Under the pieces are notes generated by a model. It worked only from the letters and a program-made list of their open reading frames with translations, did no database searches and was not told where the DNA came from. From positions 6,126,501 through 6,190,500 of the forward strand of contig NC_036447.1 of NCBI RefSeq assembly GCF_002775205.1: DNA of 64,000 nucleotides, given 5' to 3'. How positions within the stretch are numbered: the first letter of the stretch is position 1; every line of letters starts with the position of its first letter. Made by a program: the position numbers and the translations under genes. Shown one piece after another: positions 17,353 through 47,163 of the stretch. The stretch comes from Xiphophorus maculatus (taxonomy: Eukaryota; Chordata; Actinopteri; Cyprinodontiformes; Poeciliidae).

Positions 17353-20300
17353 CTATCGTCTTTTGGTTCCACCAAAACCTGAAAACCAAATAAATATGGA
17401 TGTTAGATGGATATTTGTCTATTTTAATATATTTCTAATATTGCCTAAAAAAAAGACTAAGTGGTAAAAAGAAAAATCTGCAGAATGTGCCAGTTTTTTT
17501 CACAGTTGACAGATTAGTCGATTACTAAAACAATCGTTAGTTGCAGCCTAAGTAGCGAGAGCAAAACTATTCAGAACATGATGATTCCTCCAAACCATAA
17601 ATGAGACGTTTCAACATTTCTCTGAGTCAGTCCAGTAGCGAACACAAGCATCAGTACCTGAAGCAGTGCGTGTCCCAGAGGACGTATTTGTCCCAGAGGA
17701 GTGGTTTTGTCCTGGTGGAGGTGGACTGCAGGGCTGCGTTCTGCAAAACAACCGCATGTCAACAAGAAGCTGAAAGCTGAATCTAAATTGAGAGCTGAAC
17801 ATCTTTTCTATGGACCCCATGCATGTTATTGTGTGTATCTGGAAATTTTGCTCATTTGCACAAAGCTGGAGGGCAAAAAGTCTTTCTTTTTTTACATGCT
17901 ATCCACAGCCGCGCCGCCGCGGTAGAACAACTCCGTTAACAAAATGAAACCAGGACATGTAGGTATGATTCAACTAGTGCCATACGCCACAAAAGAAAGG
18001 GAAAAATAGTGCAGGAAAACCGACGAGGAATAACTCAAAACCACATTTTTCTTGCTTTCTGTGTCAGCTACGCTACACAAAGGCTCGTTGCCATAGCAAC
18101 TGACAACAACTCCGCAAACGTATCAGGGTTCAACACCAAACATTTCCCACACAGTGAACACAACATTCAGACCGTTACAGTTTTATGTTTTTCAGTTTGA
18201 TGTTTATTTTTGCTATTATCAATAAGTGATCGCTTATTAATCACAGATGTGGTAGATTAGCTACCGCTGCTATTAGCTAAGCTAACACTGGTGGTTGACT
18301 AGCCAATTTAAAACACCTGTTCTACTGATGATCTGTCAGAATTGGTGTTTAGGTTTTATTTTGTAACTGAACCGAAACACACCGAATTCAACATCACATC
18401 TACCTGGTACAGTTGTCAAAGTCAAGTGAGCATAACTGACCTCCATCTCCCTCATTAAAACTTTTTTCAGACCTTGTCTAGATGTTATAGTGTTGACAAT
18501 TAGTAGCAAAGCACTACGTCCGTTTTTCTTTCAAACATCATTCACATTTAAGATGTAGCGCGTTATATTGACAACTTCGCTAAAACCAATGCTAGTCATT
18601 GTTAGCAACCAGAGAGATGAGGGTGAAGTAAAGCTACAGGGGGTCCATAAGTCCAAATTCAGTCTGTAAACTAAAACTTCTTGCCTCACCAACCTCTGTC
18701 GACCGAACAGATATCCCAGCATTCCTCCCGTTCCCATCCCAGTCCAGAAGCCGCCGCCGCCGCCGGTGCCGGGACCAGAGCGGCGTCCTTGGTAATATTG
18801 TCCCTGAGTGTAATCGTTGTGGAAACCATAGCCAGGATTGGTGCCTGGAAAGCCTGATCAAGAAACAGACAGATGGGAAGGTGGAAGCAATCCTTAAAGT
18901 TTTGATCTTTGAAGGATTTTGTTTTCTCTGCTTCAGCTACCTGTGTAGTCAGGTTTGAATCCAGGTGGGGGCGGTCCCCCCATGTTGTTTGAGTGATTAT
19001 TATGAGGGTAGCCCGGCTGTCCCCCAGTCTGTCCCCACTGGACTGTGTCCCCACTGAGAAACAGCTTGTAGAGACCATAAGCTATGAGGAGAAGCACAGC
19101 GACCACCAGCAATCCCCCTGAAGACTCGCCGTCTTGGGCGTAGTGCTGCTGCTGATGCTGCTGTTGGTGCTGCTGATGTTGGTGGTGCCTGTTTCCAAAG
19201 AAACTGCTGAAGAAACTAGAGGCAAGACCCCCAAGTCCTGAGGAAAGTCACAAAAAAAGAAAAAAAAACACTTTAATATATTCAAGGAGTTTTCATATCC
19301 GATAGTCCCTCAGAGTCTGTTTGCCTGGGGACCAAAACTGCAACATTTATTACATTTTTAGCTGATGCGGTTCGCTTTCACACTTCACTGTGTCAAACTA
19401 ACAAAACCATTTGAAAAACCTGTTCCCCTCCTCGCCTATGGGGGCACTGCACCAAGAACCACTTAAGGAAACAACAAAAAAGCCTCTGAAGAAGACAAGA
19501 GCGCAACTTCCTTTTTCACAAAATGTAAACAAAAATGGCGTATCGTCTGATTTTAGCAGCTGTAGGATTATTTTTTGTCTTTGGCAAAAGATCATGAGCC
19601 ATTTCTCAGGCTAGCGCTAGTCTCTTGCATATGTTTTGGTTGCATTTACCCAGAATGCCCTGGTTTACAGTCCACTTCCTCCTTTTGGAGCGGTCTCTGG
19701 TCCTCTTGGCGTTCACATATGCATTTGAACCAAGCCATTTAAAAAAAAAAGTTATTTAGCAAAAACAGTATTTTTGCTACGTAACATTTTTGCTACTTGG
19801 TTTGCAGAAAAGCTAACTAAATAGCTAGCTACCAAGAAAGTATTAACAGCTTATTACCTCACAGAACGCAGTTGGTAAACTTTTGCCTGATAGAAATGTG
19901 CCACGAGAAAAACCAACATACAAGATTAAATAGTCCAGCCATTACATAATTTAAGGCCAGCTTATCTTTTCTTGAATGAATTTAAGACATTTTAATGCCT
20001 TAATATTACATACATTAATTTAAGGTTTTTTAAGGATGCGCGAATGGTACCCATTGGGCCTGTCACAATAAGCAATAAACCAATTAACCGCATGATAAAT
20101 TACAACAATTTCCATTTACAAGATCTATTTTTTCTATTTTTCTACCAAAAACTGGATGATAAAAGTCTTCAGTTTGGTGCTTTGGTCTCAAGTAGCCCAA
20201 CTTCATAATTCATTTTATTTGTTGTTTCTGTTATTTTGTTTATTTATTTTGGTTATTTAAAATGTCTTCCAGATCCAGTGTTAAATGTTCATTATAACTT

Positions 20301-25321: not shown

Positions 25322-28300
25322 TCATACGGCGACTATGTTGTTCATCTCCCATTTCTGAGTGGATTTACTGACGTCACAGTCTGATATGAACACTTTGTGA
25401 AGCAGGTCGGAGCGGTCCAGACATTTACCTGTAAAAAAAAACAAAACATTTAAATCAATGAGCGTCAACACACACGGGTTACTTTCTTTAAAATGAAAAA
25501 CTTTTAATGGATTTTTCTGAACCATTCCAGAATTTTAACTAGAGGTAGTGAGCAGAAAGAAAATAAAATACAAATATGCAACTTTGAAACTTTTATTTTG
25601 CTAATGCTAATATTAGCGAACATTAGCATTAGCTAATATGAACAAAACTTCATATTAGTTAATGCTAGGGCTAAGTATTGATCATTGATGAGGGATTTTT
25701 TTTAATTTTTTTTTTTGCTCTGATCTTTTTGGGCAGACAGTTTTGAGTTATTATTGGTAATATTGTTATTACTTTATTGTCATCATTGTGGTCTTGTTAT
25801 TTTTATTATGATCAGAAATGTAATCAAATACATGTTTTTCATGTAATGCTTTATTATTACTTTATAATTTTTTCTGTCTTCATCTACCAAATCAACACAA
25901 AAGAAACTTTTTTCACATATTTTGTTTTGTTTTTGTGTATGCTAACCTAATCTTAATACCTGTGTTTAATTTGTTTATATCACATTAAAAAAAGCATACC
26001 GCATTTTAATCGTTTGAGTCCTTTGCTGTCAATTGCATTTTGGTATATTTAAGTATTTTTGGTCTAGTTCTAGTGAAATTAACACTTGGAATAAGACGAA
26101 ACTAATTTACAGGTAGTTTTTCAGCAAGATATAGAAGCTTGTTTTAAGTCAATAATCCCTTATATTAATAATTACAGATTATTTTACTTATAAAAATAGG
26201 AAATATGTCTTATCATAAGTGAAATAATCTGCCAGGGGAATTAGTACTTTTTATAAATACTCAAGAAATATTGACTTAAAATAAGCTCCTATATTTTGCT
26301 AAAAATGTACTTGTTAGTTTTGGCTTATTTCAAATGTACTAAGATATTTGCAGTAAAAACTAAACCAAATATTTGGTAAGATTTTGTGTTTTTGCAGTGA
26401 AGTTCTGAAAAGAAAAAGTTTAAAATACCCGTAATACACCAGTAGGTGGCGATAAAGAAAAAAAAAACACACCTCCTGTCTGTAAGACTGTAAAACATTT
26501 AAAGTTTAATAGAAACGAAGTAAGACTTATGTAGAAAATCTGAAAATCAAATGACTGAAATGTCTTTAGATGCAGAAGTTAATGTTTGACAAAACTACGC
26601 AGACATTTACCTGTTGGAACATGAGTGAACCGATGAAGATCCTGAAAAACAAAAAAAGGAACAATATTGAAAGCTGATCAACCACTAATTGTAAGAATCA
26701 ATAATCAATAATGAAACCGAGTCGTGTTTGTGTTTCTCACCTTGAAGTAGTTCCACTCAGTGTGCTGGTTCCTCTCGCAGTGTGTGATGATCACAGCTGA
26801 ATTATCTCCTTTGGTCAGGCACTGGTCGTACTGCATCAACTGCTTGGCTTCATTAATGCGGAAAAGCTACAGAACCAGAACCACAGAGATACGTCAAACC
26901 ACATTCACTCAAGATGGCGGCGCAGGGTGCAGTCTGGGCTGAGGCGGTTAAAGCCTCGACGTTTTTGCATGTTTTATCTCACAACTTCCTAAAATGTCTT
27001 TGGTTTCAATCAGAAACACCTGGAAGGAGGATTCTGGTCCAACACGGTCAGAAAGTGACGCTTGCAGTAGAATTAGGTCAAATTATTTGACAACGCAAAA
27101 TGAAATATTTTATGCTTGCTTGCGCACCCTTTTTTTCAAACCCCACCTCAGTCGTGGACGGAGGCCGCTCACACTGAACTAAAATATTTTATATATAACT
27201 AATCAATCGATTATGCTGACAATTAATCAATTAATTTAAAAAATGGCATATTCTACATATTTTTCTTCATTAAAAGAAAACTAAAAGATGCAAACTAATA
27301 ATTCAATTCCTTTTTAAATAAGAAAATATTATTATTGATTATTATTATTATTATGCAGAGATATGCAGATATTACGTTATGTCAGTCCTTCACTTTCACA
27401 GAATATTTACATTTTCTTTTTTCTCTTCCTGTGAAAATTCAAGGTTTTTGTAGGAAATACTTTCAAAGCTGCAACATCATAAAAATGTCTGTTCATTTTG
27501 TTACTAGGTTACGCAAACCGTCTTGCAGCATCAGCACTTCTTTTACCACTTAAAGCGTGAAGGCACTGAGTTTTTACCTGGTTCCCGCCCATCCTGTGGC
27601 ACGGGCCAATTTCCACATTCCCTCCGTTCGTGTGGCCCATGCTGTCGATACAGTAGCTGGTTTCAAAACCTCGAATCTGCACACATTGATTATACGGCAC
27701 TCATCATGAGTAACACAACAAATCAGCGATTTATAGGCAGGAATAAAACATGATGAGTTTATTTTCTTACCTCCCCCCACTCAACATTTTTTGGAGGAAG
27801 CGGGTAGTGCAACGGGATGTCATAAGCTATTTCCTCCATGAACCATTTGAAACTTTTGCATCGATGCTCCTCCCTGAAAAACATTTTGGGAAAACACACT
27901 TTATGTTTCCCATCGTTCATGGCTGGGAAAATATTTCAGTCTCCTGATCAAGATGTTGACAAAGACTTTTCCCAAATGACTTGTGGTTGTAACTGCAGCT
28001 AAAGGAGGTCCTACGAAGTATTAACTCAGAGAGCTATATGGAAATGCACACCCTACTTTTCAGATTTTTATAACAGAATAGACAAACTGAGTTGGTTTGT
28101 CACATAAAATTCCAATAAAATACATGAAAGTTTGTGTTTGTAATAGCAAAACTGTAAATAGATCAATGTTTGTTTACATTCTTGTGAAGATTATATAATC
28201 ATTATTTCTCCATATGGAAGAAACCCTGTGGTGTAAATTGAAAGCAAACATTTCTGTGAGTTCTGACTGCTGCAAAAACTAAAGTTGGACATAGTAGACA

Positions 28301-31300
28301 CTGTTTGGCTGAAGAGATTGAAAACATTTTGGGGAGCTTCATTCCTCATCAAATTAGCTTTTTCTTGCATAACAGTCTGTTTCCAATTAAATGTTTGTAG
28401 TTTTCACTGGATATAAGGGTTGCGTTTTAAGCCAGAGGATCTTTCAGTTTAGTAAGTAAGTGAGGCAACAAAAACAAATAAATAACACAAATTAGTTTTT
28501 GCACTTTAGGATCCCAGGATAATTTCTGATTTTCTGTCACTTCAGCATCAGGAAACTGGCAGAATATTGCAAATCTGTACTTAAAAGTATAACCACGGAT
28601 AAATCAGGTGGATCAAGACAGTTCTTTTAGGACAATTTTAATAAAACAAGAGGATCAAAATAATATAAAAGCCCTTCTTTACAAACCACAAACCACCTGT
28701 ACTGAATAATGGAGACACTGTCAGAGTGTTGGCCTCTTTTGTACCGGTTGGACCAGAAAGATTTAGTTTCAATATGATAGCACACTGTAAAAACACAAAA
28801 TCTTACCAACTATTTTAAGTTTCTAGTGCAAATATCTTTGTACATTTAAAATAAGTCAAAACTAACTTAAAAGTAACTTTTCAGCAAGATACAGCAACTT
28901 GTTTTAAGTAAATAGTGACGTAATATTGATTTTTAATAAAATACAAGTCCCACAGGTAGATTGTTTTAGACTTATTACATTAGAAAATGTCTTGTTATAA
29001 GTGAAAACATTTACCAGTAGAACTAAAACTTTTTTATATATATCAATATTAAGGAATGACTTAAAACAAGCTCATATTTCTTGCTGAAAAGTTACTTATA
29101 ACTTAATTAGTCTTATTTCAAGTGTACTAAAATGTTTTGCATTAGAAACTAAAACAAAATACTTGGTAAGACTTTGTGTTTTTGCACTAATTCTGAACAC
29201 TGGTTTCACAAAGTCATATCTAAAATCAAAATAATTAATGAAGGACATAGCATAGCTATTTACTGGTACTAAATTAATATTAAAAATAAGATGCTTGTAC
29301 ATGTTTCTGTACCTGAAACGTTTCAGCTCGCTTATGTCTCCGTAGGCTAGGGTCAGCGTTTCAGGGCGGCTGGCGTAAAAATAGTCCTTATAATCATCCC
29401 ACCAAACCTCGACCACACGAACGTAGTTCTGTTTGTACACAAAAAAATTATTGGTGTTATTGGTGCAGATGAAGATCAGCCAGTGAAATTAAATACATAC
29501 TGATCTAAATTATTATTTAGTCTCTGAGTATGAGCAGTGATTCTAAAAGAAAAGATAAAAGATAGGAACTCACTACATTTACAGTGCTGAGAGAATAAAG
29601 GCTCTACTCGGCACTCAGTGTTTGTCTGCGATCTGTTGTCGTACCTTTAGAGTGGGAGAGGATCCAACATGTGCGGGTGGGGGGTTTCCCTGCCACCCCT
29701 GGAGTCTGTAGATGTGACCGACCCGAGAACATGGCACAAAGAGCAACTGCCCCCCACACTGCCAGATCTACAGCCAGGAATAACAATAAGAAACAATTAA
29801 AAATAAAACGGGCATTTTCAGTGATCAGGAAGGAAACTCAGCATGTACACATTAGATGAGGGCTGGGCAATAAATTAGTTTTATCAATTAATCAAAGTTT
29901 TTGTTTTTGAAGATTTAAATTTTGGAAAAGCAGGATTTTTTTCCCCCACCAATTCACTCCTTAGGTTTCCATAATTCAGAATGACATCATTTCGCCCAAA
30001 TCCGCCCAAGCGTGTTCTACACCTTTAGATTTAATTAGATTTTTTAAATTACAAGAATAAAGTCATAATACGACAAGGATGCAGTCGCACAACAATAGAG
30101 TCCAAAAAATACAAGAATAAAGTCAGAACATTACCATATAAAGTCAGAATTTCATTAGATCTCCAACAACTTAAAATGAGAAATGTTGAGCATCTTTTGA
30201 AGTTATACTCAAGAATAACTTCAAACGTTACACCAAATAGAATTGTATTATTAGATAATCCAGTACTACTGAGTATTACGGTAATAATAGTACTTAAATT
30301 ACTACTTATTAGAAATACTTAATCTTTTAACACATCAGCATCAAATTATTAGCAGGAACAATCGTGCAAACAATTGTTTATTTTGAGCTGCTCATCTCAG
30401 ATCCTGATAACTAAAAACTTTTTTCTCATTAAAACAACTTTTAAAAAAGTTTTTCCTGGTAATATTGTGTCTTTATTCCGCTAATATTGAGATATATTCT
30501 CGTAAATAAGTATTGTACTTTGTTGTAAAATTCACAAAAGAGATAATTAAAGTAAAAGCCACTTTTTGAAAATATTTTCTGCCAATAAAATGATAAATTG
30601 GATTTATTTTTAAGCCATATTGCCCAGCCCTACTGTAGAATAATCTAAATATACCTTGTATGATATTTCAAAGTTCTCTCCTCCCCATATCTGCAGCCCC
30701 GGGTCGTACAGACCCAGCTCAAAGAAGAAGTCTCGCTCTATAGCAAAGAGCCCTCCAGCCATTGCTGGAGACCTACAGCAACACAAACCCACATCAGTTC
30801 CAGCAGGTACAGGTTACAGGTGCGTCAACAGGTACAAGCCCAGAATCAAGCATGGGATGAACAGAGAAGGAATCAAGCAACACACAATCCCTGATGACGC
30901 ATGATAAATGAGGAAGTGATCAGAGGAAGATGGAGGCGGTAAGGTCTCAGGACAAACTCTACTATAAGATCCCAAAACTATCCCAGACTTTAGATTAAAC
31001 CCAGAGAGACTGGAGAGTGCTAACGAAATGCTTCTGCCCTTTAGGTTCCTGTGTTTAACGTTGGTTGATGAAGTTTAAAGGTGACCTACTGTGCTCCCAT
31101 ACAAAACAAAATGTTTCTGAAAATGTTTACAAAAGAATCATTCTTAGATAATGAGATTTTAGTTTGCTCGGTTCTGTCGGAATGAGCTGTTTTAAGGCCT
31201 CTTGTCACTATAAATCCAAAAAAAGCTGCTTCTGGCAAAGCTCCCTAGCTAACGTTTACACTCGTTTGTGAAACTGACTGCAAAAGGGTGAGTAATTATA

Positions 31301-34300
31301 CAACCGTACATCTTGCTTGGGTTGCTAGGTAACAAATGTGAATTAACAACTGGGAGGTTTTCAAAGCGGATCGTTTTCCAGACACCAAAAAACATTTAAC
31401 TCATTGCCAAAAAACAGTTGGTTGCTTTTTTTTAACCACTTGGACTGTTTTTAGATGTAGTTGAGACCCAAATGGAAGTACAAAAACATGAACGGGAAAG
31501 AAAGTGAATTCTGCATAATACGTCCCCTTTAAAAAGAAAGAAAGAGCTTGATACTCAGGACAGATTAGAGTCATGACAATAAAGGTGCAACAGATAAAAC
31601 CCTGCAGGGAAGGACAGCTAGTGGACAGAACAGTGGTAAGTCAACCCACATCAGCTGGAAATAGTCTTTTAGTTGGTTAGTTATGACTTTTAGTTGGTTA
31701 GTTATGCTATACACTACATTATGAATCCTATTTTTCTTTTCTCTTTTATTACCAGAGGCAGCTCTAATGTAGTGTATATCATAAGAAATGTGGCCAGGTA
31801 CTCCAGTCCAGATGAGTCAGGAGGTTATTTGTACCTATATGGTTCAGTTACTGTTTTTCTCAGATTTTTTTCCCTGTCTCCAAGCGGAACTCTCTTCCAG
31901 AGCATGCTCCAATCCCAGGCTCCTCTAGCAAAACCGTTCTCGTCGCCGCCACCTTGGGGCTCGATGTTGAACCTCTGGCCGTGGATGGAGTCGATCAGAG
32001 GCACCGTACAAACAGTTCTGACACAACGGATGTGGGGACATGCATACAAGACACACGGAGGGGAACAGAAAGATGTCGCACAGGAAGTGGAGTGGGGGAC
32101 ACACACAGATAGCAGAGCAAAACAACACAAAGACATAGAGTAGGGGCGGTGGGGTGGATGACACCAACCAGGACAGTAGGGAACAAGAAGGGTGGGGATC
32201 AAGGAATGGGAGGTGGAGACAGAAAAAGATCAGGGGTGAGTTTTCACATGCTTTGGATATGTACCGGTATGGCTCGGTGGTATATTTTCTCGTGGCCTTC
32301 TCTTTCTGGCTAAGGGGGACTCTCTTCCAGAGCAGGCTCCAATCCCATGCTCCTCTAGCCAGGCCGTCCTCATCGCCGCCCTGCTGGGGCTCCATAGTGT
32401 ACTCATTACCATCTATATAATCTATCAGGGGAACTGTGCAAACTGTCCTACATGTAGACACACACATACACAAACCTTTGTGTATACGAACAGGCTGAAA
32501 GTGGTGGGCATTTATTGTATCGTTAATCATTTAAAGTGATACATTTCTGCTCATAAGAAGAATCTTGATTCATCATTATCACAATAAATTCCAATTAATA
32601 GTGTATAAAACCCCAAACTGTCCGTATTTCTGTTACTTTTACTATTTCCTCCACCGTTTGTTCAATTAAAGTAGAAATAAGTATAAATAAATTAGAAAAT
32701 ATGATTAAATGCAGATAGTGTGTGTAGATTAGTGACTGAAATCACAATTCTTTATGTGACTGGTGTCCTAAAGAAGAGAATTACAAAAAAGACAGAATTT
32801 GGGGTTTTCATTAACTGGGACCCAACAGTCTCAAAATTAATGCACATAAACACTAAATAGAATGTATGAATTTCAGTTTTTAAGCAAAAGTAATTGTGAT
32901 CATTAAAACCTTATGGTGATATATTTTAGTTTTCTAAGCATTTGTAGATCAGGGTTCTTATCTTAACATTAACACTGTTTCATCAGAGCTGCTTAAGAGG
33001 TGAAATACAAGTTATTATTTTTCACCCACTAGATTTTAGCGTCTTTTCTCATTTAAAGACTTTAATCAATGCAGGGTAATAAATAAATAAATAAACATGT
33101 ACATAAGAAAAAAGACAGTCGAAAAAAAAAAGGTAGACAATAGAGTTTACTTTTGAGTAAAGCGGTTAACAGAACTCTTTAATTATTAAAAATGGTAGTT
33201 AAAAAGTGAGCATGACTTACCTGTCTTTTGAAATTGGTGCAACTAGAGGAGCATACCAGTTGATTCCAACCTCACAATGAGCATCCAAGTAGATCAGAAC
33301 CTGCAGAACAGCAACAAGAACAGCAGCACACACTGTCAGAATACATGTGGTTCCTGTAAGCTGATCCCCACGGTCGCCATAACTTCCTGCATACTGTTAT
33401 GGCTAGTACAACCAACAGGTGTTTAATCTCAGTACTAGGGGTGCACCGATTTATCAGCCAGCCGATTTCCTTCATTTTTGGAGATCGGTGGATAAGATCA
33501 GCCGATTTTCATATGTGAAGCCAATCTTATCCACCAATCTTATCTACCTTGGCAAAGGTCTATAAATCCACCACTGTCCTCTTCTGCTCTGCAGTGAGAA
33601 ATCAGCTCACCAGGTCATATCTGCGCGTTTACATTTAACCCTACTGTTACCAATTCAGCAACTTTCTTGCTATATTGAGCAACATTTCAGACACAAAAAA
33701 TTGGTATTGGCCAAAATCGGAATCGGCGGGTCAGGCTTTTTAAAAAGATCGGTAACCGGCAATCAGCCAGAAAACTGCAATCAGTACACTCCAACTCAGT
33801 TCTTAAATAAACTGTACATCTGGACTGGGTTACACGTCTTGTTTAGCTAACAGATGTTGTTTTTCACATTAAGAGGCACCAAGAATGCAAATCACTAATT
33901 ATTAAAATATCATTAGGCAAAAGCTGCTAATGTTCTCCTCCTGTAGATGAAACTGTGTCTTTCAACTGTCTCTCTCCTAGTGCAATAAAGGTGCTTGATG
34001 TGAAATCTGCCAGTATAATTGGATGCAATTGACAATTTTTTAATAAAGTCCATGTAAATACATGTATTGGGAATTGGCACTACGCAAACAAACTGAATTG
34101 ATTTGAAATGCAGTGGATTTCCATGTGGTCCAAATGCATCAACACTCTACATCAGGGATGCTCAAACTTTTTGAGACCAAGATCTACTTTTTCTCTTACC
34201 AGCCAGCTGAGATCTACCTCATGACACAAAGACATAAAAATTGTAAATTAAACTCTATTGACTTACTTTATATGCAAATATACATCGGTTTTAGCAGAAA

Positions 34301-37300
34301 AAATAAAGTGATAGAAAACCTAATCCAGTATCTCCCTCAGTGGGATTCTGACACTGGGAGGAGGTTACTGGTTTCTCAGTCAGAAGCTGGTTGCAAACCT
34401 GAGGCCAGCAGGTGTCAGTCAGTTATGGTAGATCTGAAATTTGGTTTGATGACGTCAATATGAGAAGCTGCAGAGTGATAGGAGGAACCAAAGAGCTCTG
34501 TAAAGGTAAAGGCAAATCTTCTGAAGCTGGGATATAATTAATTTAATTTCACATAATTACCACGGTAGAAGCCATTTGTTTGTTAAAATTTTATGTAATA
34601 TATTTGTCCTATTTGATGTTTGTTGTGAATGACGTAAACTCACAAACGAACGAGGTAATTAATCTAAGTTTGTTGTTTATTGAACGTTTAGAAACTACAG
34701 CGGTTGTAATGCGCCACAGCAAAGGTAAACAAAGGTAAAATAACCACTCCCACCTTTTAACTCTCTCTCTCTCTCTCTCTTTGCCGTGTTAGCGCACACG
34801 TTGCCGTGGCAACCGCCTGCGCCCCGCAAGCCGAGCAAAGATTACGTTAAAAACATAACATTCAGTCCGTTACGATATCAAGTTTCCAGGCTTGATATTT
34901 ATTTCTCGATTATTAATCATCGCTTCCCTGAACACAGCGCTGGTCGATCAGCTAATTTAAACTCCTGCTCTGCTAGTCAGTCGGTCTTTCAGTCGCCTTT
35001 TTTTTTTGTTAATGGATCTAAAACGCACTGAATTGCGCAACACCTTGTTGAAACAATAATTACTGAGAATATTAATTTTAACACGTTTTGTTGATTTAAA
35101 AAAAAATGTATTCTTTAATGAAGCTATAAACGTTTACGATCTTAGTTAATATTTTGATAAGCCTGTCAGAAGAGGAAGTTCTGGTCTCAGCATCCTGGCG
35201 GCGTTCAGTTTGTCACCTACAGCCGAGATCGACTCAAAACCTTCCTGCAATCGACCGGTCGATCGCGATCGACGTATTGAGCACCCCTGCTTTAGATGTA
35301 CCATAATTTATTTTAATCCAAACCAGACAGAACTGTTCAGAGTTTCAAATAAATGCATAAAATAATCAAAACGCAGAATTATTTAAAACCTACAGCAGGA
35401 GTAAAATACTGAGATTAGGTCAGAAATGTCCAAGTCTTTTTCGACATGGGTCAAAACAATTCTGTTTAAAGTCCTCAAGTGTGACCAAAGTAGGACTTTT
35501 TATGTTTTATAAAACTTTTCATTTCTATTCTCAACAACAAAAACAGGATTTGAGTCACTATTTCTTTAAAACTTTTGCTATACAGTGATTATACAGTTTT
35601 AATTTGTTTTATAAATCAATAAAATTCAGATTTGGGTGCATCCAGGTCTGATTTTGAGTAAAAATTGATCGACAATAAAAAAAAGTCAAATAAAAAGGAA
35701 AAGAAAACCATGATCAACAAAAAATGGAAACTTTCTGTTCAACCTAGAAATTTTCCACCTGAAAAAAACTTTAAGTCATTTCAAGCCATTTTATTTATGT
35801 AACCATCTCTGTGCCAAAAGTCCAGTCAAAAACTTAAAAATAAAACAAGCAAAATCATGTAAAACAGCACTAATTTAACAGATTTCAACCTTCTAATTTA
35901 CTCAGATGTCAATCAGTGACTTATTTGTAATAATTATATGTACCTGTCCTTTGGTGGCTTTCTTGGCTCCAATGCTCCTTGCCTGGATCAATCCTTCTCT
36001 TTTGTCATTTCTGAAGAGTTTAACTAGACCGTTCCACTGCTTGATGTACTCCTCCAAACGCTCCTTCAGATGAGCTGCAAACACACAGAGAACGTAATTA
36101 CAAACGATTACAACACAGTTATGACCGTTTGTGGTAATCCATTTGTAATTAAGATTTTAAAATGCCAAAATTAGACGAAACATTAGACAGAATGGAAAAT
36201 CTAAACTGATATTTTGTTTCAGTTAATGTGTAATACAGTCGATTTCTAAATCTGTTAACCTGAAACAACCCACCTTTGTTGCTGAAGTCGTCTATTAAGA
36301 CGATCTCAGCCAGGTATCTCCTGGCCGTCCTCTTGATGACGCTGTGCACTGTTCTCATCAGCGTGGACCAGCCCTCGTTATGGAACACTATTATGACACT
36401 CGAGGTCAACAGTCTGTCATCATAATTCCAGTACTTACACCTAGAGAGGAGAAACACACAAAATACCAAATCAGTTGGAGGAATTATGAATGAGTTACTG
36501 CCAACATTTCTCCATAATTATATTCACAAATCCATCTTTTAAAGGTTCCTTGAACAGGTTGGGATCGGTCTATTGGCGACACAAAACATGCCAATTACAA
36601 TCTTTTCCCCAAAATTATTCTTAGATTTTAGTCTAATCAGTTCTACCTGTTTTGAGCTCCTTTCAGAATGAGCTGTTTTAAGGGCTTTGTCACTTAAAAT
36701 CCAAATAAAACGCAATGTTTACACTCACACGTGAAAGTAGCTGCAAACAGACAAACAATTATGCAACCGTTCTTCTTAGAAAAGCATTAGTAGAGACTCC
36801 TGCACAGCCAACAAGAATGCAGCAAGTGGTTTCTGATCGGTAATTCAACAACAAAACACTTGTCTTTTCCAGCAGCCATTGTACTTGTAAAATCAGCAGA
36901 CCAAAAGTGCTGAAGCTCAGCTTCGGTTGCTAGGTAACGGGCCTAGATTCCGCTGGTGTTGCTGGGTAACTGGCAGTGCCTGCTGATTTGTGGCCTTACA
37001 TTCCAGAGGTTTTTGAAACAGCTAATTTTTCAGAAACATAAAATCATTTACTTCTTGCCAAATATGCTGTCTGTTGTTTTTTTTTTGTTGTTGTTGTTTT
37101 TGTAAGTGTTTGGGATGTTTGTAGATGGAGCAGAAACCCAAATGGAAGTACAAAATCAAGCAAAATGTGAATTTTTCATAACTCCTAGATCCATTAAATA
37201 TCTCAAATAAGTTCACAAGGGAGCTGCTGCAGGATGAACACCAGCTAACACTCTCCTGTGAACTTTTTAGAGATATTTCAGAGCAAACCTGGGATATAGA

Positions 37301-40300
37301 GGCTGGAGTAAAAAATGGTAAATAAACTGCAACACTTTAATTATGTTATTAAAGTTATTTCTGCACTTTTCAATGAAAATATTGACCTTAGAGTCATAAC
37401 AAACGTGGAAGAAGTTCTCTTGACTTTCCATTTGAAATAGCTAATCAAATGCCAAGGTCTCTATAGAGGCAGCCAATCAGACATCAAAGTCTCTATAGAG
37501 GCAGCCAATCAGACATCAAAGTCTCTATAGAGGCAGCCAATCAGACGTCACGGTCTCCATAATGGCAGCCCTAAACCCGCCCACTGAGTTTGATGAATGA
37601 AGTTGACATTATAAAATAATTCATTATATTTCAGTACACAAACATTCTTCATAAATAATTTATTAAATCATGAAATAATTGTACCTATTTGTTAAAATAA
37701 GATCAATACATTAATTAAGGCACATATAATTAGCTATGTACTTAATAGGTTATTTCTCTATGTATTCCCAGTTTAAAAAAATGTATACGTGTAAATAATT
37801 ATTTAATTGTAATTTGGCACTCTTCACCCTCCGTATCATGAAGTTTACCACACTTCACTGTTAGTGTGTAACCATGGCTTTAGGAAGTGTTGGAATATAA
37901 AGCAGTTTGTGTTTTCAAAAAAAAAAACAAGACGTACAACTGAGGACAACTACATTTAAATGATGACGATGAGATTCAAGAATTACAAGAATTTCTGGTA
38001 CATCAGCCCAGTAATGTGGTTGTTAATGTTTATTATTTGACCTAATGCTTCACCTCCAGATACATCTGTGACACACCTCTGTTGGCGTGTTGCTGACATT
38101 TTTCCACTATTGCTCCAGTAGTGGAACCCAACTTCTAATCCTGCAGGGATGTGACTGAACTGAGATTTTAAAAAATTTACTGTTGTTGCAAGTCATGGAT
38201 GTTTTTATGTTCACCAATGGAATATGAAAACAGGAAATTCCTGATTTTCCTGCCTCAGCAGAGGATAAAAGCTGAATATTTCACCATACATTATAGTGCT
38301 GCTGGGAAACACCAAAGATTATGTACATTTAAAACACCATATGAAAAACAATGGTTTATATTCAGTAACAAGTTATAAAAATTTGTCTTTTAAAAGTGGA
38401 AACTTAAACCTTTACAAGGTAGCTCTGGGTTTATTACACTAATTTGTAAAAAGATTTTGTCTCCAATTAATTCCATTTCAACCCAAACTACTTCCACTTT
38501 GTACTCCTAAACAAAACGTTCCATATTCAAGTATTTAACCAATGTTTGTTGTTTTCTCCTTGGTTAAGTATTTTTGATCAATTATGGAGATATCACCAAA
38601 TAGGTGATTTGTGTTTTTTCCCTATTATGAAATTTAGAAAATGATTAGCTTTGATTAGGGCTGAATATCAGGAAAATCTGATTTTACGTGATGTTGGTGA
38701 ATGAACCAATGATATTATGACTTGTGATAAATAAAATAGTAATTAAAAAGTGTTAATTTCTTTACGTTTTGGGTTCATAACAAACAAAGCCTGCAGGTAG
38801 AGTCACCTATCAAAATACAGGAACACACTAAGTAAAAGTCATTATTTCTATCTCAACAGAAGAAGGTTTTAGTGAAAAAATTACAGTTGCAGTGGAAAAA
38901 ATGTCATTCAGCTGATAAGGAAAATCAGCAATGACTCAGTGGTTTAGATAAACACAACCAACTGGGTCAGACCGGACAGGACTTCAGCGGATAAAGGGCC
39001 AGCAGCATATCTGTCTTCAAGCACAAACACAGAGAAGATGGTCTCAATGCATGTTGTCCTCAGACAATGTCTATTGATAATGAAGAGCATCAACAGGGTA
39101 TCAATTTAAATTAGTGATGTCTCTTTTTAGGGCAGAAAATAACTGGAGCTAACACGTCACATTTCACATGTCGATGTTCAGACATATTTTTTGCAAACAT
39201 TCACCAGAGGAATGTTATTTTGAATTATTTGTCTATTTGCATCTTTTAATGGATTTCTAATATTGTATAATATAAGCTTAAGTGGTTGAATGAAAAATAT
39301 GCAGAATGTCCCAAATTGTTGTTATCCGATTAATTGATTAATTGTCAAAAAAATCTATAGAATAATTGATTTGTAAAATTATCGTTAGTTACAGCACTAG
39401 AAAAAACTGCAGTGTAATATTGTACAAAATAAGCTTAAATGGTTAAATGAAAAATCTGCTAAATGCTTAAATTTTTTATCAGACTAATCATCAGAATAAT
39501 CAAATACTAAAATAATGATTAGTTGCAGCTCTAGAAAGAACTACAATCTTAAATTTTAACTATTTCTCTCAAAATGGTTAAATGACAAAATTCTGAAATG
39601 TTTAAATTTTTTCTGATTGATTGTCAGAATAATAATCAGTTGTTGAAGACCTAGAAAAAACTACAATCTGTATATGCTCAGTTGAAATGAAGCCTAGGCG
39701 CAAATTCAAACTGGAAGACTCTTTTATCCCCACCGGGACCCATTAATTGAAGCGACCTGCCCACAATCGTCGACCTATCAACGCCGGACCAAGCCACGTC
39801 ACGTCCAATCATCGACCAAGTCCCAGCTGATAAGGACCTTCATTCATGGCGTCCTTCGCTCTCCAGCCGAGCTCAACCCCCCACCACCCCTTCTCCTCCA
39901 TTCGCCCGGTCCTGAGGCCCGCACCCTTCTTCAACCTCCACCACCAGTGCCGGGCCCTGGGGGATGACGTTCCTAACAGCATCGGGATGCTCATCTGAAG
40001 CCTATCGCTAACGCTGCGATAACCGTTATCCCCAGCCGGGGCCCGAGCGCCAAAGACTTTAAATTCTGTTTGTCAATAAACTCTTCTAATTGTCTTCTCA
40101 TCTCCGTCTGAGTCTCTCCAGATTGAAATAACAGCATTAATAGTAAATGAGGATGGAGAACATAAAGGTGCATTTCGAATTGTAAACAAATCAAATCAAA
40201 TCATGATACCTGGAAAATGCCACAAAGGAAACAGAGTAAGCAGCAGCAGTACTCACTCTTCATGGCGTATATCGCTGATCGTTCTGTCCAGTGAGATCAT

Positions 40301-43300
40301 GTCACTGGCCACCATGTTGAAACCAAACTCCTTAATGGACGCTTGGACGGAGTCTTTGTACTCTGGACCCAAAACAAACGGCTTGGCTCCCTCTCCGGGA
40401 CCATTAGGAACTCCTGGAGGTTCAGGTTCCTTAGGCTCAAAATTTCCCAGAACCCCTTTCTTCAGCACAGGACTGTTGTAGGCGTGTGTGTCTGGTTTGA
40501 ACGTCACATACTGCTGCTGGATGACCTGCTTCTGGTTAGGCTGCTGCCCCGCATCCTGAGGATTGTCTCCGCCTGGAGGTAGCAGCCAGAAACGACAGGA
40601 TTACATAAAGAACCAACACCAGGATTTCGCTTTGAAGTTCGTCCAAAGTCGCTTATTTCCTTATCAAACCCAAGCAACCGTTGTGAACCTTGATCTTTTT
40701 ACTGTCCTGTTTATGTTTTTAAAGGTGACCAATTATGCTTCCTTGATCAGGTTAGGATAGGCCTCTGGTTTCATTGGTTACACAAAACATGTCCATAACA
40801 TTTTTTGCACAGAATTTTTCCCAGATAATAATATTTTAATCTGGTCAGTTCAGCTCCTTTTCAGCTCCTTTCGGAATGAGATGTTTTAGGGCCTCTTGTC
40901 ATTTTAAATCTAAATTAGCTGCTTCTGGCCATGCCCCAACTCATCGCTTACACTCACAAGTAAAAATGGCTGAAAACAGATGCATAATTATACAGTCGTG
41001 CATCTTTGAAAAGCAGAAGTGGAGCCCCCTGCACAACCAATGGGAATGCAGCATGTAGTTTCTGAATGGTAAGTCAACAATGAAACACTTGTCTCTTCCA
41101 ACAGCCATTGTACAACACATACAGCTGACCAAACATGCTGGAGCTACGCTTGGGTTGCCAGGTAACAGGGATGGGTTCGATTGGGGTTGCCAGGTAACGG
41201 TACTGTGGCCGTTGAATGTGACTTAACAATCGGGAAGCTTTTGAAACGGCTCGTCTTCCAGACTCCACATTAACTTATTCTCAAAACTCGGATGGATGTT
41301 TTTTTTAAAGCTCTTAGATTGTTTTCACAACCTAAATGGAAGTTTAAAAAACAAAAAACAAAAACATGCAAAATATGTATTATGCATAATAGGTTCCCCT
41401 TTACCTTACAAGCAAGGCCGACTGGAACATATAAAATTTCTGTTTCCATACCTGAACTAGGCATCCAGAGTAAGTGTTAACTGAATCACTGCATTAAATG
41501 CTGATTTTAAGGTAAAATCTTAGTCAACTCACTAATGTTGTAATTACATGTTTACATTCAAAGTCTGGTTCTGGATGAGTTGATCCTTTAATTTTAGCTG
41601 GTCTGGAGTTTCAAAAGAAAACTCTGGCTCCGTCTGTCCTAAACACAAGCAGGATTTAATCCCCAACGATTATTACTCCATCTTATTACAATACAGCTGT
41701 CATGGTGGCTGCAATAAGTCTCAATCTGTTTACCGAGACCAAACCAACCTCAACCTAGGAGATAAGTTAATAGCAATTCCCCAACCGCTCTATGTCCCCA
41801 TCTAATGAAATATAAGAACAGATGAGAGCTGACATCTATCTGTCTGAAAGAAGTCATAAAGCCATCTAGGACTGAAACCATTAATCAGATTAATCGATTA
41901 TTGAAATAATTGTCATCTTATTTAGTAGCTGATTAATAGTTAACTGGAGAATACAGATTAAAAAGGGCCAGTTGCTAAAAGAACAATATACTTAAAGCAT
42001 TAATTAAGCCAAAGCTGTACAGAAAATACAAACATTTTGAGTTTAGGATAAAAAAACCTTTGTCTATAATTATATTCTATCCAGAACTCCACAAGCGTCA
42101 GTTTTAGCTTTACCTGGTTCAAATTATGTAAAGAAAATTCTCTTATTAAGCCTTTACTCAATTATTAATTTGTTAATTCAAATTAATTAACAGATTATCT
42201 CTACATTGTATTGATATCAAGTCAGGAAGAAACGGCTGAGCTTTTCACAATAAGTTAGAAGTATTTTTATTTTAGCTGCAGATGCATCCTTTTATAAAAA
42301 TGATCAAGCGGTCACTAAAGTAATGCTATATCATTGCATTTTAGGCAATCAAATATTTATTTATGGGTTGTTTATTTGCATCTTTTAATGTAGTTCTAAT
42401 ATTGTATAAAAAAGGTTTAAATAAAAAAAATCTTCAAAATGTGCCAAAAAAAGAAGAATCGATTAGTCGATTCATCATCAGAATAATCAATTACTAAAAT
42501 ATTTGTCAGTTGAAGCAGAATATCCTGGCATCCATTCATGACCTTAAGCTTAACAATGCTTCAGTTACAAAGCAGGATAAGAAATCCAAACCACACCTTG
42601 AAATGGGTTTGGAGTGGCCTAGTTAAAGTCTGGAATTAATGCTGATTGAGATTACACAGCTTAAATAGGCGTTTCAAAGAAAACTCTACAATGTAGCAGA
42701 GTAAATACAAAAAAAACGGGTCAAAATTCCTTCTCAGTGATGTAAAAGACATCATAACGTTGCTGGATGGAGGTTACCATCATCAGGGTGGACCAACCAG
42801 TTCCACCAGTCAATTCCTTATTCACATAATGAGTGGAGTCATCAATTGAAAACATTTTTTTATTTACTCTGGTTACCTGTGTCAACAGCTCACCCTATAA
42901 CGACAAGCGGACATAAACGGCACATGAAGTTCAATTATTTAAGAAAATACCCAATGAAGTAGACGCAGATAAGGCAAAAAAACAACAACTCGTAATTGTT
43001 CTGCTAAAACTGCAGCTATAATAATGGTAAAACCATACATTTGTAGCTCCAAAAGCAAAGTTCTCAGAGCTGATTTCAAAATGTAAGTAGGAGGATGTTT
43101 GTGTCTCACCGTGCTTCAGTCTGATGGAGTTCAGGTCGACTTCTACGCCTTCCACACGCGGCCACGGCACCACCGGTTTAAACTGATCGGCCAAGTCACC
43201 TTTGGGGAGAAAACTGTCATCCTGTTTGAGAAAAAAAAAAAACATGGTGAGGTCGTAAATAAACACAAATCTAAATGACAAAATATGTAAGCATGTAACC

Positions 43301-46300
43301 TCAGACAGCACTAAATGTTAGAACAGTTTACAGACAAGTTTGTGAAGAGAGACAAGAGTGAAATACAACCCAAGAACCACAAAAGGTTCTAGGATCATCC
43401 AGCCTGTCACAATAACAAATTTTACTGGATGATAAATTGTCCCAGGAGTAATCGCAATAAATGATCATATTGTTTTGAGACCATTTTCCAGTAACATAAT
43501 GATAAAACAATACAAGAACACAATCTCAAAGATCAATAAACTTTAAATTCTGATGAACATTTAACACTGAATTGGAAGACATTTTAAATCTAATAAAATA
43601 AATCAATCCAACATAAAAAATAAACAAAACAACAAATAAAATTAATTATGAAGTCTGTAAGTAAAGCTATCCTATTTTTGGTAGAAAAAGAGAGAAAAGA
43701 GACAGAAATTATATTCAATTATTGAGTTTGTTTTCATTTATCATACGGTTAATTGATTTACTGCTTATTGTGAGTGGGCTAACGACTGGTATAGTTTGTG
43801 AAAATTAAATTTTAATGAAGTTAGTAGCAGGGATTGTATTTCCAGGCTCACACAATTTCTCGCTAAAATCAAGCACTTTTCAAGGTAAGTTTTCAAGCTT
43901 TTCCAGCAACACACTTTGGAGATAAAAACACAAATAAACGAAAGAAGAAAATTTCAATTCACTATTAAATTTTATAATTTATTTTTGTTGTTAATATTGT
44001 ATTGTGACGATACACTAAATAGGAGGGACAAAATAAAATAAAACAAAATTTTATGTTTTGAAAATTCTCTCACACGCTCTCTATATGACTGGCTGGTCCA
44101 AGAACAAAACACAAATTTAAGAAAAATAGATCCACTAATTTCAACAACCTTAACATATAAAGTATAAAACCACTTTTATTTCGATTCTAAAATATCAAGC
44201 ACTTTCAAATGCTTTACAGAAATCAAGTATTTTCCAACCTTGAAAACACCTAATTGAAATACAACTATTTTCAAGTATTTCAAGGATCCTTACAAATGCT
44301 GCTAACTAATTAATCACATTTTAATCAATTAATCAACAAAATAAGCAACATTTCCAACTCAAAAACTATTTTTGCTGCTACAATATTGAATAAATAGACA
44401 CATGAGCTCAACAACAATAAAGATATTTATTGTTTTTGATCTGTTCAGATTATTCAATCATCAGATTAACACAAAGTGCTAAAATACACATTCATCTTTC
44501 GTGTATTTCAGGAACTCTGATTATTCATGTAACTTTTTTAGAAATGTGGACGCTGACCTTAGCGTTAGGGGGCGTCTCTGCTGCTGCAACATGTTTTGCA
44601 TATAAATGGTATTTTAGGCTGAAATAGCTTCAGTAATAGGCTAACTCCTACTAGAACAACTTGCACACAATAATAGTCTCTTCTGGCAAACCCATCAGAT
44701 CGTTTTATGAAGTAAAAATTAACCCCAGTGTGTCAAGAAGAGTAACTTTGTCTTCCATTGCTGTTTGCAGATGTCGCTTGTGCGTCAGATTTACAAGCGT
44801 ACCAGAAACACAACACAAAGGTTCCAGCTTGGGATTTTTGAATGTAAAAAAAAGATGAAGATTTTTAAAATATATGTAATTCACTAATAGAATAAAAATG
44901 TACATGTTAAAGTTCCAACAACATGCTTCCTGTTGCTATGGCGGCAGATGAGACATAATGTGGACAGGATGTGGCACTAAACACACCAGTCTAGCGTAGT
45001 TGTTTTGTTTGTTTTTTTCTCTACACACACCTTTACAAACAGGTGTTCCCACATCACTCCTTCTCAAGCTGGTGTACAGAAAGGCGTGACTTGAAAACAT
45101 TCCTTACAGAAATGGCTAGAGTGATTGGTGTTTTAAAAAATCCTTTTTTTAGAAAAGATTTTTAATACACTGGAGTAGATACGATTAAATGTCTAGAAAA
45201 AAAACTCAGAAGATAAGAAAGTTTGAAGGCCTTTTGTCTTGTCTGGTGAGTGGAGGAGACTTAATTAATTTATAGCCTTTCATAAGCATTTTAATAATCT
45301 GCTCTTCATACTAAGTTCCAATGTGATGAGCAACATTTAATTTCACAACAATCAGAAATGAAAGTTGAAGAATTTAAATTTTCAATGCTGGCAAAGTTTT
45401 GTCCATGGAAACTTGAAAAGTAAAGTATCAACCATTCCTTAAAGGTCCAACCGATAGAAAACTATAATTAAAAGTTGAGCCACAGCCCCACTAAACAAGC
45501 CTTACTTGTTCACCTGTTTGGATGAACAATGGCTTTATAAATATACCAGACAGATGTGAGACAACTAGAGCTGCATCGATTAATTGATCCAGATTTCCTT
45601 CATTTTCAGTGATTCCTGCATGTAAATACGATTTTATCTACCTTTGCTAAACTGACCCGCCCACCTGGTGACGTCTGCACACGTGCGGTTAAAGATGCAG
45701 TATTATCTGTTCTCCAGGCACATAAAGCCATTTTAGAGCATAATCAAGTAACTTTTACCTTCAGTTGGTATAAAAATGCTATACATGTCAAATATGACTC
45801 AAAAGAAATTTTACTGATTTCACGCCCTGAAATTGGGCCTCTGTCTCTTTAAGAAACTCCTGCTCTTTCTGAAACTCCGCTATCAGGAAGTTATCACAAC
45901 ATGACTCCTCTTTTAACCCTTTAACATTTGTACCAGTGTTTCATTGAGAAGTAGCTCATACAGTGAGCTCAGCAGATGTGCAGTCTGACCAGGTGTTTGC
46001 TATTTGCTGCTGGAAAATCGCAATGTCAGCTTTTTTACTCAATATTTTGCAGCCGTAAATTCCTGGTTTACTGTGACACTCTGCTCAGATTTTTCTGAAT
46101 GTTACTTCCAATCAGCACTTCTGAGTTGGTGTCCTTCCGTACTTTAGAAGTACATCAACTCAGTGAATCTTGAAATTAAGAAATCTCACGGCTGTTTGTT
46201 TCTTAACCTGATCTCCGTAACAAACTCACCATCGCATTTCAAATCCAAACTCACAACTCATCTGTTTACACTAGCTTAACCATCTGATCACAACTGCAGT

Positions 46301-47163
46301 GTTATTGTTATTGTATATTAATGTTGATGATTTAAGATGACCTTGAGTCAATATTCACTCTCACTATTTCAACTAAATATTAAGTTTTCTTACTATTAAG
46401 TTATGGTAATGATAGGTACAGTAGGTTTGGCTTTCTTTTTCACCCCTTTTTCACTACTCCATTATTTTCTAAAAGATTTCTAGCTGCTGTACTGGTACTT
46501 GTGTAGAAATATAGTTTGGTAAATTACAACTCAGTACATCCGATTGGTTTAATTTAATTTATTGATCTGCAATATCAATTGATTTCTAAAATAAACTACA
46601 GTAACATTACGATTTTATGATAATCTGATTAATCCATTGTGACAATAATTCATCTGATTATGTAACTACAACAGCATATTCGTTTAAAAAAACAATGCTA
46701 AACTTTCACTTGGCTACTTCTGATCAGAAGTTCGTTAAATGCAGCCAGCTCACTTCCGCCTGTTGAGGATCCGTGACTTTAAACGTGGTGACATGTACGG
46801 ATGTGGATCCTGGATTGTTGGGAAGGGATGCACCTGGAAGTCCAAATGCGTTTCATTTCCACCAGCAGTTAAGTTATAAACGCATCCCAGCAAAACTAGA
46901 GTTACCAACAAATGCAATAACTGTCCAGTTGTGGGAACAAGCTAACGAGGACGCATAAATCAACGCCACACCGGGTTAACTCGACATGCACTGGTCGCTC
47001 TGTAGCAAGTGTCACTGTTTGGTGCGATTTAGCTTCTTACCTTTTTCCTGAACGGGTTGTCGTCGCTTGGCTTTGGAGAAAGAGACGACCAGAGTACCAC
47101 CAAACCTAAAAACGTCCCAATGACCAGTAAGCTCCGCAGAAGGAATCCCACTTTCAGCCTCAT
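25322..47163 (-). CDS. galnt7: Polypeptide N-acetylgalactosaminyltransferase 7 (GALNT7)
   Basis: Minus strand. Exons: 47041-47163, 43110-43221, 40257-40572, 36274-36440, 35944-36074, 33221-33300, one of 32265-32447 or 31835-32017, 30655-30772, 29645-29767, 29313-29428, 27771-27873, 27578-27676, 26741-26866, 26611-26641, 25322-25428. Phases agree throughout: 1935 nt, 644 aa with one copy of exon 7 (human 657). It is a Golgi type II enzyme that adds GalNAc from UDP-GalNAc to Ser/Thr, and the family member GALNT7 prefers already glycosylated peptides. Seen: cytosolic MRLK, membrane anchor about 7-27, [30 protein letters not shown], metal-binding D-A-H about 289-291, WGGEN about 400-404, VGH about 426-428, and a C-terminal ricin-type lectin domain ([28 protein letters not shown]) ending IVAV. 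The start ATG matches the mammalian N-terminus MRLK. Confidence 0.97.
25429..26610 (-). other. galnt7: galnt7 last intron
   Basis: No exon. It contains GCTAATATTAGC-type inverted repeats (about 25600-25665) and a palindromic MITE of family D (about 26050-26399, right end TTTGTGTTTTTGCAGTG). Confidence 0.6.
28783..29187. mobile_element. palindromic MITE family D (CACTGTAAAAACAC ends)
   Basis: The left end CACTGTAAAAACACAAAATC and right end GACTTTGTGTTTTTGCAC are inverted, and the whole element folds back on itself (TCAGCAAGATACA.. against TTGCTGAAAAGTTAC). Other copies: about 23660-23960, 26050-26399, 49745-50682 (interrupted) and 53860-54150. Confidence 0.65.
29859..30632. mobile_element. 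hAT-like element (GGGCTGGGCAATA ends)
   Basis: AGGGCTGGGCAAT at the left and ATTGCCCAGCCCT at the right are perfect inverted termini. The AT-rich interior of about 0.77 kb has no transposase frame. It lies between galnt7 exons 8 and 9. Confidence 0.6.
31079..31528. mobile_element. TTAA-flanked MITE, family C copy 1
   Basis: TTAA at 31075-31078 and 31529-31532 flanks an element with ends AGGTGACCTACTGTGC and GCATAATACGTCCCCT. It carries GTTGCTAGGTAAC (31321-31333). Confidence 0.7.
31835..32017 (-). CDS. galnt7: galnt7 exon 7b (alternative copy of duplicated exon)
   Basis: This 183-nt exon is bounded by TGTGTCAG (acceptor) and GTACAAAT (donor) on the gene strand. Phases are identical to exon 7a. 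It encodes [56 protein letters not shown] and TEPYR. It matches 7a at about 43 of 60 residues. It retains the GGGDE and [13 protein letters not shown] cores seen in mammalian GALNT7, so it may be the ancestral-type copy. Both copies have intact frames and splice sites, and an intron of 247 bp separates them. In the mature protein it would occupy about residues 310-370, between the DxH metal site and the WGGEN motif. Inclusion of both copies would not shift the frame, so exclusivity is inferred and not forced. Confidence 0.9.
32265..32447 (-). CDS. galnt7: galnt7 exon 7a (alternative copy of duplicated exon)
   Basis: This 183-nt exon has acceptor TACATGTAG and donor GTACATAT on the gene strand. 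It encodes [56 protein letters not shown] and TEPYR. It lies 5' of 7b in the transcript. Differences from 7b cluster in two places: the loop after PLID (YIDGNEYTM against SIHGQRFNI), where 7a is acidic and 7b basic, and the SQKEKAT / GDREKNL helix. The invariant catalytic-fold residues are kept. This pattern is typical of duplicated alternative exons under purifying selection. Confidence 0.9.
33436..33794. mobile_element. hAT MITE (TAGGGGTGCACCGAT ends)
   Basis: It begins TAGGGGTGCACCGATTTATC and ends with a decayed complement (TACACTCCAA). An 8-bp target duplication is visible: CTCAGTAC (33428-33435) against CTCAGTTC (33795-33802). It lies in galnt7 intron 5. Confidence 0.7.
34153..35289. 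mobile_element. hAT element, about 1.1 kb, with 8-bp target duplication
   Basis: Termini CAGGGATGCTCAAAC and ATTGAGCACCCCTG are inverted. The flanks CTCTACAT (34145-34152) and CTTTAGAT (35290-35297) match at 6 of 8 positions, as expected for hAT. The interior holds a (CT)10 run (34761-34780) and a near-perfect X-box palindrome GTTGCCGTGGCAAC (34800-34813). No transposase remains. Confidence 0.7.
36543..37193. mobile_element. TTAA-flanked MITE, family C copy 2
   Basis: TTAA at 36539-36542 and 37194-37197. The interior is shared with 31079-31528 and 40723-41400. It contains two X-box-like motifs (36926-36938, 36958-36970). Confidence 0.65.
37457..37571. repeat. 32-bp tandem repeat with CCAAT boxes
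   Basis: Three full units of 32 bp (37457, 37489, 37521) and a partial fourth at 37553. Each full unit contains the palindrome CTCTATAGAG and an AGCCAATCAGA CCAAT box (CCAAT at 37473, 37505, 37537). It is located in the large galnt7 intron 3. Confidence 0.9.
39690..40130. mobile_element. GC-rich island, candidate solo LTR
   Basis: Its base composition contrasts with the AT-rich surroundings. It contains a polyadenylation-type CAATAAACTC (about 40073-40082) followed by TCTTCTCATCTCCGTCTGAG, resembling the R-U5 end of fish Gypsy-type LTRs. No flanking duplication or internal gag/pol was found, so the LTR call is tentative. Confidence 0.35.
40723..41400. mobile_element. TTAA-flanked MITE, family C copy 3
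   Basis: TTAA at 40719-40722; TTAC at 41401-41404 on the right. Ends are AGGTGACCAATTATGC and GCATAATAGGTTCCCCT. It holds two GTTGCCAGGTAAC motifs (41154-41166, 41186-41198). Confidence 0.65.
41470..43109 (-). other. galnt7: galnt7 intron, no exon seen
   Basis: AT-rich intron with fragments of a repeat bearing GATTAATCGATTATTGAAAT-type sequence (about 41890 and 42450-42510). The same wording recurs near 17510, 21170, 27200, 39330-39640 and 46580-46660. It is a common fish hAT-type terminal sequence (AGTTGCAGC-type ends). No coding exon is supported. Confidence 0.5.
43395..43785. mobile_element. hAT-type MITE (CCTGTCACAATAAC family)
   Basis: Left CCAGCCTGTCACAATAAC and right TTACTGCTTATTGTGAGTGG form inverted ends. 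Shares AACATTTAACACTG and GGAAGACATTTTAAAT with the copy at 55504-55884. It lies between galnt7 exons 1 and 2. Confidence 0.6.
45693..46020. mobile_element. TTAA MITE, family B copy 2 (truncated)
   Basis: TTAA at 45689-45692, then AGATGCAGTATTATCTG. It shares GGGCCTCTGTCTCTTTAAGA with the copy at 4998-5572. The right end is not preserved. Confidence 0.55.

Follow-up and report, generated by a model that had tools for sequence, protein, structure and literature searches.

A tandem pair of catalytic exons in galnt7 of Xiphophorus maculatus: a probable mutually exclusive switch

Introduction

Two adjacent, similar exons occupy the catalytic part of the galnt7 gene of Xiphophorus maculatus, which raises the question of whether this one gene gives two enzymes with different target preferences or whether the second copy is a relic, a freely combined cassette or a functional equivalent of the first. 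GalNAc-T7 has been described as a strict glycopeptide-preferring enzyme, with a putative GalNAc pocket of the catalytic domain held responsible for the enhancement of its activity (PMC10901373).

Exon choice has been described in other members of this enzyme family. In Drosophila, the choice of exon in PGANT9A and PGANT9B gives the variable loop opposite charge and changes substrate preference (PMC6115407). The splice forms PGANT5A and PGANT5B, from the same animal, differ in a catalytic-domain stretch of about 60 residues, at positions 398-457, where the flexible loop of the active domain and a helix-turn-helix are found; one residue alters substrate choice, and PGANT5A dominates in salivary glands (PMC12776162, preprint). 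Substitutions arising by tandem exon duplication have also been listed for GALNT13, Pgant5 and gly-5, covering vertebrate, fly and worm (PMC9741552).

Here, we analyzed a 64-kb window of Xiphophorus maculatus DNA, the whole stretch under study, starting from a first-pass annotation that had proposed an alternative-exon switch. We argue that galnt7 carries an old tandem duplication of a catalytic exon that has been kept as a mutually exclusive pair with different substrate preferences, a reading to which we assign a probability of roughly three in four.

The galnt7 gene and its twin exons

The galnt7 gene lies on the minus strand of the window, where 15 coding segments were located (Table 1), a set that lacks at least one lectin exon. 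Exons 4-10 match human GALNT7 (PDB 6iwq) with an E value of 1.5e-187, the next match being GALNT10 at 2.8e-89. Identity to the human protein is 79-97% for exons 4-6 and 8-10, and exon 7, in its 7a copy, is the least conserved of exons 4-10, at 72%. Judged by this best and high catalytic-domain identity, the gene is GALNT7, encoding GalNAc-T7; exons 1-3 and 11-15 are presumed to belong to it by resemblance. Both spliced catalytic forms match PF00535 (1.4e-28 and 8.9e-27) and PF02709 (3.7e-07 and 1e-06), all above the Pfam cut-off, and each predicted isoform has a catalytic domain of GT2 type that includes the DxH and WGGEN motifs. Searches of Rfam at gathering scores, and of NCBIfam with the galnt7 lectin exons, returned no match, and no relatives were found in viral contigs (two scans) or phage records (tblastn).

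Table 1. Positions of galnt7 features in the 64-kb window
Feature	Position	Strand	Basis
galnt7 coding span	25325..47163	-	start ATG at 47163; last codon before stop at 25325 (...NNIVAV)
Exon 6, 80 nt, DAH metal site, ends GACAG/GTAAGT	33221..33300	-	reading frame, splice site
Exon 7a, 183 nt, encoded segment ends TTEPY	32265..32447	-	frame, splice sites, match to human GALNT7 6iwq
Intron between 7a and 7b, 247 nt, 71% pyrimidine	32018..32264	-	composition
GCATG shortly after the 7a donor	32247..32251	-	motif
AG-exclusion zone, 231 nt, pyrimidine-rich, reaching the 7b 3' splice site	32020..32250	-	AG-free run count
CTCAC, candidate distant branch point with its A at +28 (7a donor) and 219 nt from the intron end	32236..32240	-	motif only
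CTGAT, candidate distant branch point with its A at +35 (7a donor) and 212 nt from the intron end	32229..32233	-	motif only
TGCATG shortly before the 7b acceptor	32039..32044	-	motif
Exon 7b, 183 nt, encoded segment ends VTEPY	31835..32017	-	frame, splice sites, match to human GALNT7 6iwq
Exon 8, 118 nt, carries WGGEN	30655..30772	-	reading frame, splice sites

Exons 7a and 7b lie next to each other, are homologous and agree in phase and length, and their splice sites are intact. The two exons and the distance between them proved to be exactly as the first-pass annotation had them (Table 1), as did their equal phases and intact splice sites, both copies being read in the same frame and all four splice dinucleotides (AG/GT) being present. 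Exon 6 ends in GAC AG, and 7a and 7b each complete the split codon as Arg; the last two bases of both copies begin a further codon, again made up to Arg by exon 8. The encoded segment lies, as had also been claimed, between the DxH motif, present as DAH in exon 6, and the WGGEN motif in exon 8. The protein identity of the copies, previously put at about 72%, comes to 42/60, or 70%, when counted, and 125 of 183 nucleotides are identical. A block of 19 residues and the sequence TEPY are kept in both.

When one copy is used as a tblastn query against the window, the other is recovered at an E value of 8.7e-29, and the local alignment of the two exons is better than all of 300 shuffles. No third copy was found by tblastn in the 64 kb, the next best matches having E values of 1.5 (for 7a) and 2.0 (for 7b).

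Divergence, constraint and age of the pair

Comparison of 7a with 7b by the NG86 method gave a dN of 0.226 and a saturated dS of 2.75, with a dN/dS of about 0.08, a single pairwise value from one species. By codon position, 47/60 first, 50/60 second and 27/60 third positions are identical, as are 10 of 20 fourfold sites. Saturated synonymous sites together with a low dN indicate a long divergence of the copies during which protein change was held back. The first-pass annotation had called for dN/dS on both copies; what the comparison supplies is evidence of constraint on the pair, the value being shared by the two and not assigned to each. Within these bounds, the dN/dS between 7a and 7b points to constraint on both copies.

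The 150-nt flanks of the two exons are not clearly alike, since shuffles aligned as well in 30 of 300 cases for the upstream flanks and in 276 of 300 for the downstream ones. A recent duplication and an assembly artefact are both ruled out by the saturated synonymous sites and the lack of clear similarity between the flanks. The repeat finder returned nothing linking 7a and 7b, a result that counts for little, as it also missed the exon pair itself.

Human GALNT7 (6iwq) has one matching segment, with 43/60 residues identical to 7a and 45/60 to 7b, so each copy is about as near the human protein as its twin (42/60). In a tree with four other GalNAc-transferases, the grouping of 7a with 7b is ahead by a margin of only about 1 log-likelihood unit, and each of the three possible positions for the human exon falls inside the 95% set (AU 0.70, 0.30 and 0.31). 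The tree thus leans, without significance, towards a duplication after the fish-mammal split. In the tree that groups the two copies, the branch lengths are 0.05 for human, 0.30 for 7a and 0.23 for 7b, so that both fish copies would have been accelerated if the duplication postdates the split.

These observations bear on a rival explanation, in which a single working exon is accompanied by a relic that is dead or seldom used. It would accord with the single segment in crystallised human GALNT7 and with the donors of 7a and 7b, which are weak: at 3.2 and 2.3, by the donor matrix applied here, they are the lowest of six scored in galnt7, the rest ranging from 5.4 to 12.6. A relic as old as the saturated synonymous divergence implies should, however, have acquired stops or lost splice sites, whereas both copies are open and splice-ready; the low pairwise dN/dS and the 19-residue and TEPY blocks kept in both copies also argue against it, and we consider it quite improbable. 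On the sequence evidence, 7a and 7b are a real and old tandem exon pair in galnt7 that looks constrained.

The intron between the two copies

The 7a-7b intron contains one AG, at positions 13-14, followed by 231 nt without AG as far as the 7b acceptor. This run is the longest among 7516 AG-free runs on both strands of the window, and 0/300 first-order Markov simulations of the minus strand reached its length, the longest simulated run being 224 nt. The AG-free zones at the seven other galnt7 acceptors tested measure 26-124 nt. When the bases of the tract itself were shuffled, 189 of 20,000 arrangements of this pyrimidine-rich sequence stayed AG-free, and the zone is for that reason partly an effect of composition.

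Counted from the 7a donor, the branch-point-like motif yTNAy stands at +28, +35 and +66 and nowhere else in this intron, so the last 180 nt are free of it. The first two are the candidate distant branch points of Table 1; the third, TTGAT, lies above the steric threshold and could itself be a branch point. Such a motif is present within 13-60 nt of five of the seven other galnt7 acceptors tested, and 274 of 12,765 minus-strand segments of 178 nt lack it. The missing near motif is not special when taken alone, because the acceptors of exons 7a and 5 likewise have none.

A comparable arrangement is known from other genes. For the OGDH 4a/4b exons, the distance from upstream donor to branch point is 25-41 nt in human, 30 nt in frog and 46 nt in sunfish, for rat Tpm1 it is 41 nt, and the steric threshold for the distance between donor and branch point is near 50 nt; the AG-free zone of OGDH has a canonical size of about 280 nt, given for sunfish (PMC7969005). 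The galnt7 intron resembles OGDH and TPM1 in having branch-point motifs near the donor with a large pyrimidine tract downstream, and OGDH also in its long AG-free zone, but the branch points of OGDH and TPM1 have been mapped, whereas those of galnt7 are predicted from motifs. The layout fits mutually exclusive exons governed by a distant branch point, with the +66 motif as a caveat, and predicts that 7a and 7b exclude one another.

We propose that the branch point of 7b would lie so near the 7a donor that the U1 and U2 particles could not occupy both sites, that joining of 7a to 7b would in this way be blocked, and that each transcript would receive either 7a or 7b. A device of this kind would be needed because 183 is a multiple of three, so that a transcript with both exons would keep the frame and presumably escape nonsense-mediated decay. 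The alternative-exon switch of the first-pass annotation gains support from the constraint on the pair and from the distant-branch-point layout, while the part of the claim that concerns exon usage stays a prediction.

The preserved frame also leaves room for independent cassettes, used alternatively but not exclusively, with double-inclusion or skipping isoforms made as well, both of which would stay in frame. The lowered inclusion of exon 6 that a 2026 paper reports for human GALNT7, an exon that may not be the counterpart of fish exon 7, could be read in this sense (PMC13039441). Set against such free combination are the 231-nt AG-free zone and the donor-near branch-point motifs, which predict a block to 7a-7b joining, and the 61-residue insertion that double inclusion would place in the catalytic core, which very likely would not fold; we regard these cassettes as highly improbable.

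If the two exons are mutually exclusive, factors acting on the weak donors, on the long pyrimidine tract and on a pair of GCAUG sites would set the choice between them. The three introns that flank and separate the two exons total 2081 nt and contain just two GCATG motifs, both in the short 7a-7b intron, at its two ends; we take them to be RBFOX-type sites, and by the RBFOX rule both would presumably favor 7a. Two or more GCATG motifs are found in 112 of 6376 overlapping windows of the same 2081-nt size, so the pair of motifs is a lead only. RNA pairing as a device of exclusion was set aside, the fold of the pair region being unremarkable (z 0.68).

What the swap would alter in the protein

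The segments encoded by 7a and 7b differ at 18 of 60 residues, 10 of these in residues 10-29, 7 in residues 46-56 and 1 between. We take residues 10-29 to be a hairpin and residues 46-56 a helix region, as in GalNAc-transferase structures. The GALNT7 hairpin has a four-residue insertion (residues 26-29) relative to GALNT1, 2, 4 and 10, and the differing residues 27 and 29 fall inside it. The first-pass annotation had described a loop that changes from acidic in 7a to basic in 7b; this is correct for the 8-residue loop, whose net charge goes from -2 to +1 (-1 in human GALNT7), but does not extend to the 20-residue hairpin, which is acidic in both copies at -6 in 7a and -2 in 7b, with -4 in human GALNT7.

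Eight contact residues have been named for the peptide groove of GALNT2 (PMC4432651), and by alignment five of these, Val255, Leu270, Phe280, Trp282 and Tyr284, map to the exon 7 segment, which lends residue-level support to the earlier suggestion that this segment lines the acceptor side. Four of the five equivalents (Ala, Trp, Arg and Pro) are the same in 7a and 7b. The remaining position, that of GALNT2 Val255, is by alignment Tyr in the 7a form and Ser in the 7b form; human GALNT7 has Val there.

The identity at four of five groove positions also speaks for a reading in which both exons are used, in mutually exclusive fashion, yet give protein forms that are functionally near equivalent, and constraint by itself is no proof of different function. 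The differences are clustered, however, in the hairpin and the helix region, and in PGANT5 a single residue was enough to change specificity (PMC12776162); near equivalence appears to us unlikely.

We favor a pair whose forms differ in function. Each form would fold as a working GalNAc-transferase, and the two would differ chiefly in the hairpin and in a helix next to the acceptor groove, with the Tyr/Ser exchange at the position of GALNT2 Val255 among the differences. The forms would hence prefer different partly glycosylated substrates, and, given the putative GalNAc pocket, an effect of the swap on glycopeptide choice is plausible. One gene could in this way supply two enzymes with different target preferences. 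A fuller version of this proposal is possible but tentative, and we would put it at less than even odds: the two catalytic forms of fish galnt7, a strict follow-up GalNAc-transferase, would be kept apart by a steric distant-branch-point lock, RBFOX-type sites would tip the choice to 7a in RBFOX-rich tissues, and the swap would retune the part of the acceptor groove that reads prior GalNAc, in a segment untouched by the PGANT5 and PGANT9 switches.

Comparison with known exon switches

The first-pass annotation had offered PGANT9 as its precedent. PGANT9 exchanges about 30 residues of the lectin domain and not of the catalytic domain (PMC6115407), and the closer parallel is PGANT5, whose splice switch changes specificity from within the catalytic domain (PMC12776162). 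As in the galnt7 pair, about 60 catalytic residues encoded by a single GalNAc-transferase gene are swapped; in galnt7, by contrast, the segment is an earlier one, between DxH and WGGEN, which judging by the motifs does not overlap that of PGANT5. The two also belong to different subfamilies, PGANT5 being the ortholog of GalNAc-T1 and galnt7 encoding GalNAc-T7. The duplications listed for GALNT13, Pgant5 and gly-5 are events of the same kind in the same enzyme family, and GALNT7 is not named in the main text of that source, where GALNT13 is the sole 'GALNT' (PMC9741552).

Among the matches listed in a search of paper texts, no description of a tandem or exclusive exon in GALNT7 was found, and the pair may already be annotated in gene databases as predicted isoforms. 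PMC13039441 mentions GALNT7 as well as 'mutually exclusive exons', in passages that do not connect the two, and the main text of a paper on human exclusive exons (PMC5740500) names no GALNT. The further literature matches checked name GALNT genes other than GALNT7.

An exon pair that swaps part of the GalNAc-T7 domain would yield two matched enzymes 18/60 residues apart, a ready experiment on how the putative GalNAc pocket reads prior glycosylation. The pair would add a vertebrate GalNAc-T7 to the exon-switched GalNAc-transferases and, together with PGANT9, PGANT5 and GALNT13, would suggest that exon switching repeatedly widens specificity in this family.

Other features of the window

Just past the candidate branch points, intron positions 32214-32227 form a 14-nt, 86% complementary pair with positions 31869-31882 in exon 7b, which may have arisen by chance or may act as a competing RNA pairing. 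In the 7b-8 intron, at 31666-31784, a perfect 21-bp tandem duplication stands beside an inverted repeat with 20-nt arms 43 nt apart, possibly the remnant of a small mobile element.

Open frames at 18530-21920 on the minus strand apparently belong to another gene, with a His/Gln-rich stretch and a membrane-like segment, and we take them to resemble SARAF (TMEM66). On the same strand, a neighboring gene at 50900-53800 has several ankyrin-repeat exons with Pfam Ank matches, and presumably resembles ASB5/9/11. Leucine-rich-repeat exons at 62170-63847, also on the minus strand, give a weak LRR_4 match below the cut-off and presumably resemble the C-terminal part of FBXL19 or KDM2.
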